A stretch of 64,000 bases of DNA from Rhodopirellula sp. (lineage in GTDB: Bacteria; Planctomycetota; Planctomycetia; Pirellulales; Pirellulaceae). Shown here piece by piece: positions 14,817 to 22,968 of this stretch. Location: positions 6,095-70,094 of the forward strand of contig NZVD01000051.1 of assembly GCA_002701385.1 (NCBI GenBank). Direction: 5' to 3'. A program made the translations under genes and the position numbers. Positions within the stretch are counted from its first letter, which is position 1. Every line of letters starts with the position of its first letter. Under the pieces are notes generated by a model. It was not told where the DNA came from and did not search any database. It saw nothing but the letters and a program-made list of their open reading frames with translations.

Positions 14817-14903
14817 TGGTAGCCGAGGCGGGACTCGAACCCGCACGTCCTAACGGACACAGGATTTTAAATCCTGAGCGTCTGCCAATTCCGCCACTCG
14901 GCC
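14817..14903 (-). tRNA. tRNA-Leu (anticodon UAA)
   Basis: An 87-base cloverleaf on the minus strand. The acceptor stem GGCCGAG pairs with CTCGGCT (first pair G-U). The anticodon stem-loop is CAGGA-TTTAAAA-TCCTG, giving anticodon UAA for UUA codons. There is a long variable arm as expected for leucine, a T-arm with GGTTCGAGTCC, discriminator A73, and an encoded CCA. It lies 91 bases downstream of leuA on the same strand, with no terminator obvious between them. Confidence 0.97.
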
Positions 14904-14994: not shown

Positions 14995-16524
14995 TTATGT
15001 CTTCGATTGATTCTCGATGCGATTAACCGCATCTAATATAGCCTGAATCGTCGACTCCACCGTATCAGTCGATGTCCCTCGTCCCCGATAGACACTCCCA
15101 CCATAATCGACTTCCACAAGTACTTCGCCAATTGCGTCGCGACCCAACGTGGCGCTACGTACCTGATAGTCCTTACAAGTAATCTCTAATCCAGTGATTT
15201 TTTCAATTGCCCAAAATGCGGCATCGATAGGGCCATCACCTGCCGCCACTTCTTCTGTGACTTCCTGTCCGTCCCGCGACAACGTCAGTTTGCAACTAGG
15301 AGTTTCCCCAGTACTCGACTTCACATTGAAAGCGACCAAAGTCCATCCACCTTCCGCTTCTCCACCATGAATTCTCTTCTGAATCAATGCGTGGATATCG
15401 CCGTCATAGATCTCTTTCTTCTTATCGGCCAGTTTTTTGAATTCTTCAAAAACTTCCTGCAACTGTTCGCCAGTAAGGTGATAGCCCAGTTCGCGAGCTC
15501 GGTCTCCCAACGCGGCACGGCCTGAGTGTTTACCTAAGACCAAATCCGTTTTCGCTAATCCCACATCTTCCGGACGCATGATTTCATACGTCGTACGCTC
15601 TTTTAGCATTCCGTCCTGATGGATTCCAGCTTCGTGAGCAAACGCATTTTGACCCACAATCGCTTTGTTACGCTGCACAGCCATCCCCGTGATCGATGTC
15701 AGTAGTCGACTGGTAGGTACCAGGCGATGGGTATTAACGTTGGTTTCCAAATTATAAAAATCCTGACGCGTCTTCAGTGCCATCACCACTTCTTCCAGCG
15801 AACAGTTACCAGCTCGTTCACCAATACCATTGACCGTACACTCAATTTGTCCGGCTCCGTTTTGTACGGCTGCCAGACTATTGGCAACGGCTAATCCCAA
15901 ATCATTGTGGCAGTGAATGCTGATTACTGCCTGATCAATGTTGGGCACTCGATTGAAGAGCATCGAGATGGTTTCCCCCATTTGTTGCGGAGTGGCATAA
16001 CCCACGGTGTCCGGGATATTGATAGTTGAAGCTCCGGCTGCAATCGCAGCTTCGACCACTTCACATAGAAAATCATGCTCCGTACGCGCCGCGTCTTCAG
16101 GAGAGAATTCAATGTCGTCACAGTAACTGTGAGCTCGTGTTACTCCCTCAACTGCCCGTGCAATGATTTGCTCACGAGTCATCTTTAATTTGAATTCACG
16201 ATGAATAGCACTGGTGGCCAGGAACACGTGGATCCTACTGCGTTCGGCGTGTTTTAATGCTTCCCAGGCGCGATCGATATCTTTATCACTACAGCGAGCC
16301 AGACCGCAGAAAGTCGTGCCTTGCATTGTGCTACTGATTTCTCTCACGGCTTCGAAGTCACCAGGAGAGGCAATGGGAAAGCCCGCTTCCATGACGTCAA
16401 CGCCCAAGTCAATTAAGGCCTGAGCAAGCTCCAGCTTTTCAGCCAGGTTCATACTACAGCCAGGAGACTGTTCACCGTCTCGAAGTGTGGTGTCAAAAAT
16501 AGTTATATTTCGAGATTCACTCAT
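14995..16524 (-). CDS. leuA: 2-isopropylmalate synthase
   Basis: This 509-residue enzyme condenses acetyl-CoA with 2-oxoisovalerate, the committed step of leucine synthesis. I start it at ATG 16524; an in-frame TTG 18 bases upstream has no better ribosome site. The catalytic TIM barrel begins with [16 protein letters not shown], includes [18 protein letters not shown] and [19 protein letters not shown] (the HxH metal site and the family signature), and is followed by the subdomain [18 protein letters not shown]-terminal LeuA allosteric domain (about residues 380-505) is complete, so leucine feedback is likely. Transcription is almost certainly attenuated by the Leu-rich leader at 16719-16843. 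tRNA-Leu(UAA) follows on the same strand. leuCD are not in the window; leuB is 5 kb away. Confidence 0.96.
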
Positions 16525-16718
16525 TGGTCTATCTAGTTTCAAACAGGAAAAAATGGAATGCCGGCCTGGTGAACCGGATTATTGGCGTTGCCATTCTGCT
16601 AAGCAGATGTCGGCCTTAAACCGACTCGGTAAGCAGGAGGCATGCATGCCGCTGAAAAGCACATTCTCCGCTATTTCTGATTGTGAACCTGTTTGAAAAC
16701 ATCTATCTGAAAACCATT

Positions 16719-16746
16719 AAAAAACCCGAGGATTGTCGGCCTCGGG
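16719..16746 (-). terminator. leu attenuator terminator hairpin
   Basis: On the minus strand CCCGAGG-CCGACAAT-CCTCGGG-TTTTTT: a perfect 7-bp GC-rich stem followed by six T residues, about 195 bases before the leuA start and 38 bases after the leader-peptide stop. Its 5' arm is also the partner of an upstream antiterminator strand (16779-16789 with 16740-16749), so the two folds exclude each other. Confidence 0.88.
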
Positions 16747-16789
16747 TGCTTGCTGTGGAACTTATTCGGTTACTACATACACCCTAAGG
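16740..16789 (-). promoter_or_regulatory. leu antiterminator pairing region
   Basis: RNA from 16789 to 16779 (CCUUAGGGUGU) can pair with 16749-16740 (GCACCCGAGG): six contiguous pairs GGGUGU/GCACCC, then one mismatch and three more pairs. This uses up the 5' arm of the terminator. The first strand overlaps the leader stop codon, so a ribosome that reaches the stop masks it and the terminator forms, while a ribosome stalled at the Leu codons leaves it free. This is the classical attenuation logic. Confidence 0.75.
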
Positions 16790-16843
16790 TCGTGCTAATA
16801 GCACGGCTAATAGGCTCGGTAAAAGTAATCGGCATGAATGCAT
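16784..16843 (-). CDS. leuL: leu operon leader peptide
   Basis: A 19-residue reading frame, MHSCRLLLPSLLAVLLARP, with ATG at 16843 and stop TAG at 16784-16786. Seven of 19 residues are leucine in three runs (UUA CUU UUA, CUA UUA, CUA UUA). An AGGGA ribosome site lies about 9 bases upstream. It precedes a terminator hairpin and leuA, so its translation rate should report charged tRNA-Leu. Four of the seven Leu codons are UUA, read by the tRNA-Leu(UAA) gene found just downstream of leuA. The same stretch has an overlapping frame starting at ATG 16834 that is not Leu-rich and is rejected. Confidence 0.85.
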   Translation of the reverse strand: MHSCRLLLPSLLAVLLARP

Positions 16844-16881
16844 TAAATTAGTTCCCTGATTTGCCGGACTTGTATTCTTTG

Positions 16882-16910
16882 ACTCTAATTCAGATCCCCT
16901 TACTGTGCAA
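16882..16910 (-). promoter_or_regulatory. Candidate promoter for the leu leader
   Basis: TTGCAC and TAGAGT are separated by 17 bases on the minus strand, about 40 bases upstream of the leader-peptide start. The match to a sigma-70-type consensus is only moderate, but the position is right for a short attenuator leader starting near 16875. Confidence 0.35.
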
Positions 16911-16930
16911 TAACGCAGATGGGAATCCTC

Positions 16931-17932
16931 CTAGCGAATTAAAAGGTCACTGCTGTAACGGGGTGAGGCGATCCGGGATTGATTCGCACCGGGAATCGAA
17001 GCGGGAATGCGTTGTTGGATGGTTGGAGGTGCGTACTGAGTGGCCTGCGGAGGATTCATTTTGGATAAGTCGATTTGTGGATACCCGTCATACTTGGGCA
17101 TTGTCCATATTTGGTTGGCATCACCAACGTTATTATTGATCTGATAGCGAGGTACATCGATTTGGAATGCCATTTGGTATTCGCTGCCCGGGAATAACTG
17201 GATTTGAACTCGGTGAGGTAAGGAGACCCCATATCGTGGGTAGAAACTATGCTCAGATGCTTTGACACTGGCCAAAATTTGTCCGTTGGCCTGGGTTAAA
17301 TGCTGCTCCAGCACCCATCCAAATCGGTTGTCTATAATCATTCTGCGAGTGACTTCTCCGGATGGTGTCTGGAGTCGCGTACGGACCTCATAAGAACCAT
17401 TTTGATGCTCAAAGGGGCCTTCATGGAAGCCGGCTGGATCCAGGTAGACAAGCCCCATAGCTTCAGTAATCCAGTTTAAGTCGATTGGAAAATAATGCCG
17501 AGCGGCAGTTGTAGCCAGCTGATCGTGGCGGACAAAAATGACCGCCGGATCTGCTTGTTGCTTGACCCATAACCAGGCCAGCTGTTCGTTGCTACCAAAA
17601 TCAACTTCAGTAGCGGTGAAATCAAATAGCCCGGCTGTGAGTCGAAATTTCTTCGGCTGCTCAACAATAAACTGGGCCTTCAATGTAGGCGCTCCGGCAA
17701 CGGAGATCTTGGCACCCTGCGATTGCAGTTGTTTGACCATCTGAGTTGTGTTGACCGCCGACATCAATTCCTCCAGAGACGGCTTGCCCTGAAATGCTAC
17801 CGGAGGTAATCCCGAGTGTTTTTGTACATATGATTGCCATGGGCAACCGGTTAGTAATAGACAACCCATTAGCAAGCAAAGAGAAACTGTGGGTAGACTC
17901 CGATTACTTGGACTTAAGCGAGCTACAGGCAT
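16931..17932 (-). CDS. Outer-membrane-type lipoprotein, LolA/LolB-like fold suspected
   Basis: A 333-residue lipoprotein: a hydrophobic signal (about residues 14-29) ends with lipobox LLTGC at Cys30. The mature part begins with LEELMSAVNTTQMVKQLQSQ, then a beta-rich body in which KFRLTAGLF, LAWLWVKQQ and RMIIDNRFGWVLEQHL alternate in the manner of LolA/LolB/LppX-type half-barrels, and a Pro/Gln-rich tail after about residue 275. The start overlaps the stop of the upstream 162-residue gene by one base (TGATG), so the two are coupled, and the ECF sigma gene lies upstream. A role at the envelope is inferred from the lipobox and fold pattern only; no exact name is justified. Confidence 0.75.
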   Translation of the reverse strand: MPVARLSPSNRSLPTVSLCLLMGCLLLTGCPWQSYVQKHSGLPPVAFQGKPSLEELMSAVNTTQMVKQLQSQGAKISVAGAPTLKAQFIVEQPKKFRLTAGLFDFTATEVDFGSNEQLAWLWVKQQADPAVIFVRHDQLATTAARHYFPIDLNWITEAMGLVYLDPAGFHEGPFEHQNGSYEVRTRLQTPSGEVTRRMIIDNRFGWVLEQHLTQANGQILASVKASEHSFYPRYGVSLPHRVQIQLFPGSEYQMAFQIDVPRYQINNNVGDANQIWTMPKYDGYPQIDLSKMNPPQATQYAPPTIQQRIPASIPGANQSRIASPRYSSDLLIR

Positions 17933-21909: not shown

Positions 21910-22968
21910 TTAGAGGTTTTCACAAACGAGGTCGCCGACTTCTGTTGTGGAATATCCCATGCGTCCTGCTGACATGCTTTCCATTTTCGTTCCAGTGACG
22001 ACTTTGATCGCTTCGGTAATCTTAGTGCCAGATTCTTCATGGCCCGTCTGATCAAGCAGCATGCCCATGGCGGCAATCGCGGCAATCGGATTGATGACAT
22101 TTTGACCGGTGTACTTAGGAGCACTTCCGCCCATGCATTCGAACATGCTCGTTCCCCCTGGATCAGGGTTGATATTTCCACCGGCTGCGACGCCCATTCC
22201 CCCTTGAATCATGGCGCCCAGGTCAGTGATGATATCGCCGAACATATTCGTCGTTACCACGACATCATAATATTCAGGGTTTTTGACGAACCACATGCAT
22301 GCCGCATCGATGTGATTGTAATCAGCTTCCACATCGGGGTAGTCTTTGGCAACGTCCTGATAGGTTCTCCACAGTAGGTCGTGGCCATAAGTTAGGACGT
22401 TGGTCTTGCCTACCAGTGTCAGACGTTTCCCTTTGGGGTTATTTCGTTTGCGAGTGTATTCAAAAGCATAGCGAATAATACGTTCACAACCTTTACGGGT
22501 ATAGATCGCGGTTTGCGAAGCAACTTCATCCGGTGTTCCCTTTTTCAGGAACCCGCCGATACCGCAATACATATCTTCAGTGTTTTCACGGATCACAACA
22601 AAGTCGATGTCTTCCGGGCCTTTGTTTGCCAATGGGGTTTCGACGCCTGGGTAAAGTGTGACTGGTCGCAGGTTGACGTATTGGTCTAGTGCGAAACGCA
22701 GGCTCAGCAATAATCCTTTTTCCAGAATACCGGGCTGTACGTCCGGGTGGCCGATGGCTCCCAGATAGATCGCATCCATTTCCTTCAATTCATCTACAGC
22801 GCCGTCAGGCAGGATTTCGCCTGTCTTAAGATAACGATCGCCACCGAAGTCATAGTGGGTCAATTCGTATTCAAAGCCTTCCTGTTCAGATGCCGCTTTC
22901 AGCACTTTCAGGGCTTCGTTGGTTACTTCAGGGCCGGTTCCATCACCAGGAATGACAGCAATTTTCAT
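21910..22968 (-). CDS. leuB: 3-isopropylmalate dehydrogenase
   Basis: A 352-residue NAD-dependent beta-decarboxylating dehydrogenase, the third step of leucine synthesis. ATG 22968 is used; the longer upstream reading has no family match. It begins MKIAVIPGDGTGPEV and contains the substrate loop RFALDQYVNLRPV, the RENTEDMYCGIGG and TNVLTYGHDLLW segments, and the metal-binding NMFGDIITDLGAMIQGG. Together these fit the IPMDH/isocitrate/tartrate superfamily; the RENTEDMYCG form is somewhat closer to the LeuB/homoisocitrate side. leuA lies 5 kb away on the same strand, so this is not one operon here. A 6-bp hairpin (CGGCAC/GTGCCG, 23027-23045) is in its leader. A related homoisocitrate or tartrate enzyme cannot be excluded. 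Confidence 0.85.
   Translation of the reverse strand: MKIAVIPGDGTGPEVTNEALKVLKAASEQEGFEYELTHYDFGGDRYLKTGEILPDGAVDELKEMDAIYLGAIGHPDVQPGILEKGLLLSLRFALDQYVNLRPVTLYPGVETPLANKGPEDIDFVVIRENTEDMYCGIGGFLKKGTPDEVASQTAIYTRKGCERIIRYAFEYTRKRNNPKGKRLTLVGKTNVLTYGHDLLWRTYQDVAKDYPDVEADYNHIDAACMWFVKNPEYYDVVVTTNMFGDIITDLGAMIQGGMGVAAGGNINPDPGGTSMFECMGGSAPKYTGQNVINPIAAIAAMGMLLDQTGHEESGTKITEAIKVVTGTKMESMSAGRMGYSTTEVGDLVCENL

Follow-up and report, generated by a model that had tools for sequence, protein, structure and literature searches.

A probable ribosome-mediated transcription attenuator of leuA in Rhodopirellula and its relatives in the Planctomycetota

In a 64,000-nucleotide stretch of DNA from a Rhodopirellula sp. 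(the whole stretch analyzed, hereafter the window), we identified upstream of leuA an element that is very probably a ribosome-mediated transcription attenuator of this gene. The element's anatomy, its conservation, the coevolution of its paired strands, and the codon bias of its leader all support this conclusion. As far as sequence comparison and fold modeling can tell, it would function as in classical ribosome-mediated attenuation and has most of the testable features that define such systems, i.e., a short leader ORF with a ribosome site, predicted to be translated, 5' of a biosynthetic gene; control codons that match the end product of the pathway (Leu); a predicted intrinsic terminator between leader and gene; an antiterminator and a terminator that are mutually exclusive, for which alignment pair counts alone are weak; and, in an energy model, a fold that is decided by the position of the ribosome. 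A first-pass annotation had proposed a leucine attenuator for this planctomycete leuA; its description of the sequence was right, and its proposal is well supported by the sequence analysis but understated, as such elements are also present in relatives and before other amino-acid genes.

RESULTS

A Leu-rich leader and an intrinsic terminator precede leuA

All features of this locus are on the minus strand. leuA (14995..16524; NCBIfam) is the gene that the element would regulate and encodes 2-isopropylmalate synthase; its product scores 728.9 bits against TIGR00973 (NCBIfam cut-off, 598.7). Upstream of the leuA start codon at 16524, the leader peptide ORF MHSCRLLLPSLLAVLLARP, read from the sequence, spans 16784..16843 with its TAG stop included and has 19 codons, of which 7 encode Leu (four UUA, two CUA, and one CUU). 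Based on the codon list and the fold model described below, the putative control codons are codons 6-8 (UUA CUU UUA; 16820..16828), 11-12 (CUA UUA; 16808..16813), and 15-16 (CUA UUA; 16796..16801). A Shine-Dalgarno-like AGGGA (16853..16857) lies 9 nt before the leader ATG; AGGGA or AAGGA precedes the leader in six members of the genus, and none is obvious in the remaining two (L007 and L008). The intrinsic terminator (16719..16747) consists of ACCCGAGG and CCTCGGGT, which are separated by 8 nt and form an 8-bp stem (hairpin, 16747-16724), followed by T6 (16724-16719), and ends 199 nt upstream of the leuA start codon. Thus, the 19-codon leader with seven Leu codons, the AGGGA, and the terminator CCCGAGG/CCTCGGG with its T6 are all located where the first-pass annotation had placed them.

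Upstream of the leader, we found a −35-like box, TTGCAC (16905..16910), and, 17 nt from it, a −10-like box, TAGAGT (16882..16887). In an alignment of six of the eight leuA-bearing genus members (L007 and L008 were left out of this alignment and of that of the tRNA spacer), TTGCA of the former box and the entire latter box are identical. Because 16910 is the first base of this promoter-like pair and 16719 the end of the T run, both ends of the region singled out in the first-pass annotation fit. A transcript starting downstream of the leader would, according to that annotation, have spoken against attenuation; the pair conserved in six members is 5' of the leader and would place the transcription start near 16875, although it matches the sigma-70 consensus poorly and is absent from the list of our consensus promoter scan. 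The same scan gave no promoter-like site on the minus strand between the leader and leuA, a stretch outside the conservation alignment. The gene 5' of the leader (16931-17932, minus strand) has no NCBIfam match. leuB, encoding 3-isopropylmalate dehydrogenase, is located at 21910-22965 on the same strand, ∼5 kb upstream of leuA; no leader with terminator was listed before it in a window-wide scan.

Terminator and antiterminator are predicted alternative folds

The predicted antiterminator pairs a 5' strand, CCUUAGGGUGU (16779..16789), with a 3' strand, GCACCCGAGG (16740..16749), that overlaps the 5' arm of the terminator, and the duplex CCUUAGGGUGU/GCACCCGAGG has a calculated energy of -15.5 kcal/mol. 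Duplex and swap tests support both strands and fold tests additionally the 3' strand. The leader stop codon UAG, with which the first-pass annotation had noted an overlap, is inside the 5' strand. Of the 62 loci with a leader and terminator (see below), 56 have a best antiterminator duplex that includes at least part of the stop codon, an end base counting as overlap. The duplex outperforms 95% of shuffles in 33 of the 62 loci; in L002, the closest relative of the window, the antiterminator is weaker (-12.4 kcal/mol, p 0.125).

The comparative tests used 59 of these loci for swapping and folding (L019, L023, and L109 were removed) and 50 for alignment A1 (the 59 minus L018, L028, L052, L057, L060, L066, L074, L077, and L081). 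In the 50 aligned loci, the terminator covaries: 9 of 12 pairs are changed in both partners (a number reached in 4 of 500 shuffles), the cells changed on both sides number 37 versus 12.2 in shuffles (0 of 500 as high), and the count of paired cells was not reached in any of 500 shuffles. For the antiterminator, pair counts on this one MAFFT alignment are weak, with 65.8% of cells paired versus 64.3% after shuffling (23 of 500 as high) and 8 pairs with both-side changes versus 7.8 (323 of 500 as high); moreover, a slide by +1 nearly equals its pairing (62.6%) and exceeds its covariation score (0.158 vs 0.151). The alignment mixes two antiterminator registers, i.e., rows with three and rows with four C in the terminator arm. 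In a swap test on the 59 loci, in which relatedness is not fully removed, the antiterminator strand paired at -15.45 kcal/mol with its own partner versus -12.66 kcal/mol with the partners of other loci (z -8.0; 0 of 5000 permutations as low). On 48 dereplicated loci, z was -6.3, and leader and linker segments of the same loci, serving as controls, gave z values of -0.4 and 0.4. Leu runs and covarying stems, which the first-pass annotation had suggested looking for in relatives, are found as far as the Leu runs and the terminator are concerned, while for the antiterminator the swap test is positive and the plain pair counts are weak.

Within the leader, a small hairpin, CGUGCU-AUU-AGCACG (16791..16805), covers the last Leu codons and is a candidate pause or 1:2 hairpin. 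Judged by eye, its arms vary in step among genus members; over the 59 loci, there is a weak tendency to form it (mean z -0.87). The folding energy of the whole 192-nt region is ordinary (z -0.27), and the evidence therefore rests on the arrangement of the elements and on its conservation.

We folded the RNA of the window's locus with the ribosome footprint removed and recorded the minimum-energy fold. In this energy model, the antiterminator forms when the A site is at Leu codon 6, 7, 8, 11, 12, 15, or 16 (at codons 15 and 16, as its core), and it wins at stalled Leu codons even with the full terminator transcribed; once the ribosome occupies the stop codon, the terminator alone remains. Covering the antiterminator strand costs at least 4 kcal/mol of the antiterminator fold in 58 of 59 loci. 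Footprint folding thereby agrees with two predictions of the first-pass annotation, namely, that stalling favors the antiterminator, here at all seven Leu codons, and that a ribosome at the stop codon masks the antiterminator strand and lets the terminator form. When the ribosome is omitted from the model, the complete leader adopts a fold that includes the terminator, and nascent RNA lacking the terminator 3' arm has the antiterminator core; the latter state should be prevented in a strict classical attenuator and counts against that form of the mechanism.

An effect of the leader on translation of leuA, or on termination by Rho, in place of the intrinsic terminator is highly unlikely. Such a mechanism would have a parallel in actinobacterial leuA, which has a Leu-rich leader with the LEU pseudoknot and no classical attenuator (PMC1262725), and it would fit the 16 of 23 upstreams in family f99 in which our scanner called no leader plus terminator; in seven of these misses that were inspected, a hairpin with a weak T tail follows the leader. 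However, the terminator at the locus in the window is strong, has a T6, covaries in relatives, and, at 199 nt, ends too far from the leuA start codon to mask its ribosome site.

The leader and terminator recur upstream of leuA

The survey included 110 leuA loci (30 kept from 60 related genomes and 80 kept of 592 from named genome contigs), corresponding to 102 distinct upstreams and 8 duplicates. A Leu-rich leader with a terminator is present at 62 of the 102 upstreams; the antisense strand of the 102 has none, and dinucleotide shuffles gave a mean of 0.10 per 102. Within the 64-kb window, we detected 37 terminator-like hairpins, and only that of leuA follows a short Leu-rich ORF (at least 5 and 30% Leu); a single further hairpin is preceded by an Arg-rich ORF. 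These counts bear on the idea that the hairpin is the terminator of the upstream gene at 16931-17932 and that the Leu-rich ORF is there by chance. That gene, which is on the same strand, ends at 16931, and a terminator after it would be unsurprising; nevertheless, we regard this explanation as exceedingly unlikely given that the combination of ORF and terminator recurs before leuA far above both controls, that leaders precede leuA in other families of the class, that the promoter-like pair sits between the upstream gene and the leader, and that other genes carry leaders fitting their own amino acid.

The first-pass annotation had made conservation in close relatives a test of the attenuator: the leader and terminator are present at every one of the eight leuA loci of the genus (L001-L008) and extend through much of the order. 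In six of the eight, the positions of Leu are mostly constant and the Leu codons are swapped synonymously; L007 and L008 have a different Leu-rich leader. Among 470 Leu codons in leaders, 22.1% are CUA and 11.1% UUA, compared with 2.6% and 5.3%, respectively, of the 2266 Leu codons in the corresponding leuA genes. Of the 18 loci with a LeuA identity below 68%, 16 are among the 40 upstreams that fail the test. The 40 also include L026, L075, and L089, which have a weaker leader just below the threshold, and a Pirellula-like group (L025, L042-L045, and L056) that appears to be without a leuA attenuator.

A T-box or riboswitch that senses tRNA-Leu or a metabolite directly, making translation of the ORF irrelevant, would use the same kind of choice between terminator and antiterminator, but it has next to no likelihood in view of the mostly constant Leu positions with synonymous codon changes in the 5' region of six genus members and of the Rfam results, in which only two tRNAs reached gathering scores in the whole window and a permissive scan (E up to 10) of 461 bases (16500-16960) gave three small-RNA matches far below their cut-offs and neither a Leu leader nor a T-box. 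We accordingly rejected T-boxes, riboswitches, and other known RNA families.

A tRNA-Leu(UAA) gene follows leuA in part of the order

A tRNA-Leu(UAA) gene (14817..14903), also on the minus strand, lies 91 nt downstream of leuA, and its product is expected to decode the leader UUA codons. We found tRNA-Leu(UAA) no more than 1 kb downstream of leuA, in the same orientation, at 24 of 99 loci (within 250 nt at 14), with the choice of these loci (tRNA present or at least 1080 nt of downstream sequence) slightly favoring hits; other tRNAs occur within 1 kb after leuA in 2 loci. In six genus members, the tRNA gene has its own conserved promoter-like pair, TTGGAG-17-TAAGAT. For this reason, we dropped the tRNA as a firm part of the leuA unit, and joint control of leuA and the tRNA is a possibility. 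If it were true, the presence of the tRNA next to leuA in part of the order would mean that read-through could feed back on the very tRNA that is sensed.

leuA leaders extend beyond the window's family and class

In a class-wide sample of 98 genomes, of which 96 have LeuA, we examined 87 further leuA upstreams using a loosened Leu threshold (at least 5 and 22% Leu); L001, L012, and L024 were already counted among the 102, and G128, G164, G195, G309, G311, and G321 were left out. The leader and terminator were found at 16 of 19 upstreams in the window's order (14 at the 30% threshold), at 20 of 20 in family f21 (16 at 30%), at 7 of 23 in family f99, which includes Isosphaera pallida (4 at 30%), and at 14 of 25 in families f100-f103 (10 at 30%), with 9 of 20 in f100 alone, which may be the Gemmata family. 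Antisense controls gave 0 in all four groups, and shuffles gave 0.00 to 0.05 per group. The f99 count is probably too low: seven misses that were inspected have a GCCCCGAGAC-type hairpin after the leader, although with a weak T tail.

We also searched 199 genomes across the phylum at E 0.01 with a covariance model of the leuA element, using filters that lose weak matches; 20 genomes were matched. Besides the window's own, eleven matches are 5' of leuA (L115-L119, L122, L124, L125, L128, L129, and L133), and two of them, L115 and L125, are outside the window's class. Thus, within the phylum, leuA leaders are not confined to the window's family or class.

Matching leaders precede citramalate synthase and DAHP synthase genes

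In the window's own genome, the leuA-element model has a second match (E 0.08) that ends 23 bases before a citramalate synthase gene, whose product scores 671.5 bits (NCBIfam cut-off, 450). The gene after it looks like valS, as judged by eye from its translated start. The match (L113 500-707 on G000:C38) contains a candidate Ile/Val leader, MSCDRMSQIGNIEIVNVIAAGMMIPVGVVSDVIIST, with 7 Ile and 6 Val, and a terminator 36 nt after the leader. Of 41 genomes, 28 have an Ile-rich leader with a terminator upstream of a cimA-like gene, compared with 1 on the antisense strand and 0.0 in shuffles; the NCBIfam check was made on the window genome's own gene alone, and the 40 relatives are second LeuA-like genes that are roughly 30% identical. 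Of the 41 cimA upstreams, 4 also passed the Leu test and 3 the aromatic test.

Five matches of the model (L120, L121, L123, L126, and L134) precede DAHP synthases, named from sequence reading, and have Phe/Tyr-rich leaders. In the window's genome, a Phe/Tyr/Trp leader, MNHQQTFYWSFFFTGPWQRGVGRDMS, taken to begin at an internal Met of a longer ORF, and a terminator precede a DAHP synthase gene (L205, upstream of 1501; G000:C46), whose identity, alone among the DAHP synthases, was checked with NCBIfam. Aromatic (Phe/Tyr/Trp) leaders are present at 19 of 23 upstreams of one DAHP-synthase group and at 0 of 7 upstreams of a second group; 1 of the 23 also passed the Leu test. Examples of Ile and aromatic leaders had already been seen when their thresholds were chosen, and the controls were given identical thresholds. 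The remaining four model matches (L127 and L130-L132) have no convincing leader; L132 nonetheless precedes a DAHP synthase.

Using the same tests, matching leaders were found at 0 of 25 ilvB upstreams and at 0 of 25 upstreams of trpE-type genes, the latter measured from where the Pfam domain match begins rather than from the gene start and excluding five weaker PF04715 loci. We therefore rejected ilvB and trpE as extra targets. A first look had covered 21 of the 25 ilvB loci and 26 of the 30 (23 plus 7) DAHP-synthase loci; of the stronger trpE-type loci, it had covered 15 of 25. The profile listings include further matches that have no loci and are outside these counts.

DISCUSSION

Altogether, we think it likely that Planctomycetota have a regulon of amino-acid attenuators at pathway entry points, in which leuA is preceded by Leu codons, citramalate synthase by Ile/Val codons, and DAHP synthase by aromatic codons. 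In this regulon, the stop codon of the leuA leader would lie within the antiterminator; the leuA switch would be present in several families and in more than one class, including Isosphaera pallida and perhaps the Gemmata family, and the aromatic leaders would be present in other classes too.

We infer that at leuA the promoter-like pair is used, the leader is translated, the outcome depends on charged tRNA-Leu, and transcription does terminate before the gene. RNA polymerase would start 5' of the leader, probably from the conserved promoter-like pair, and a ribosome would follow it, translating the leader. When charged tRNA-Leu is plentiful, this ribosome would reach the UAG, where its modeled footprint would block the 5' strand of the antiterminator; the terminator would then form, and transcription would stop before leuA. 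With charged tRNA-Leu scarce, the ribosome would wait at UUA, CUA, or CUU codons upstream of the stop codon, and, in the model, the antiterminator would take the 5' arm of the terminator and leuA would be transcribed.

In the leu attenuator of enteric bacteria (Escherichia coli and Salmonella), which is located upstream of leuA, the leader is rich in Leu and uses rare CUA codons, and the antiterminator and terminator have a common strand. The planctomycete element is similar in having a Leu-rich leader with CUA, an antiterminator and a terminator that share a strand, and leuA downstream; however, it is not matched by an Rfam covariance model, including that of RF00512, which we take to be the family of the enteric leu leader, its stop codon lies within the 5' strand of the antiterminator, and a tRNA gene rather than more leu genes follows leuA. 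The Planctomycetota are distant from the enterics, and the leuA attenuator perhaps had an independent origin. The trp and pheA attenuators of gamma-proteobacteria respond to aromatic amino acids; their aromatic-codon leaders are similar to those described here, but the controlled gene differs, being DAHP synthase in planctomycetes. An attenuator of pheST in gamma-proteobacteria is also named in the literature (PMC1262725).

The Staphylococcus aureus ilv-leu operon has a Leu-rich attenuator before ilvD, with an antiterminator drawn as pairing with the poly-U of the terminator (PMC5794164). The two systems have in common a Leu-rich leader peptide, a terminator, and an alternative fold before branched-chain genes, whereas the planctomycete element precedes leuA and captures the 5' arm of the terminator, and ilvB is without a leader in 25 loci. 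The actinobacterial LEU element is a pseudoknot in which a stem pairs Leu codons with the leuA ribosome site, and mutations in Streptomyces were not consistent with classical attenuation (PMC1262725). Both elements include a Leu-rich leader ORF upstream of leuA, but the planctomycete locus has both a terminator and an antiterminator.

In the open full text of PubMed Central, we found no report of ribosome-mediated attenuation in Planctomycetota; the subscription literature is mostly outside this search, and a prior mention is possible. The closest work found, a survey of leader-gene distances, includes Planctomycetes, and leuA and leucine are absent from its main text (PMC4833913).

Planctomycetota are known for a nucleus-like compartment. 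If the attenuator is functional, transcription and translation must be tightly coupled in these bacteria. A review describes transcription and translation as physically separate in Gemmata obscuriglobus and calls the extent of this separation unclear (PMC6212462). Because attenuation needs a ribosome close behind RNA polymerase, the disputed coupling in planctomycetes becomes directly testable. Moreover, our findings would extend the logic of attenuation to another phylum, for three sets of amino acids and at the entry enzymes of their pathways, and the leaders may be usable as natural sensors of leucine, isoleucine, and the aromatic amino acids in bacteria that are still poorly understood.
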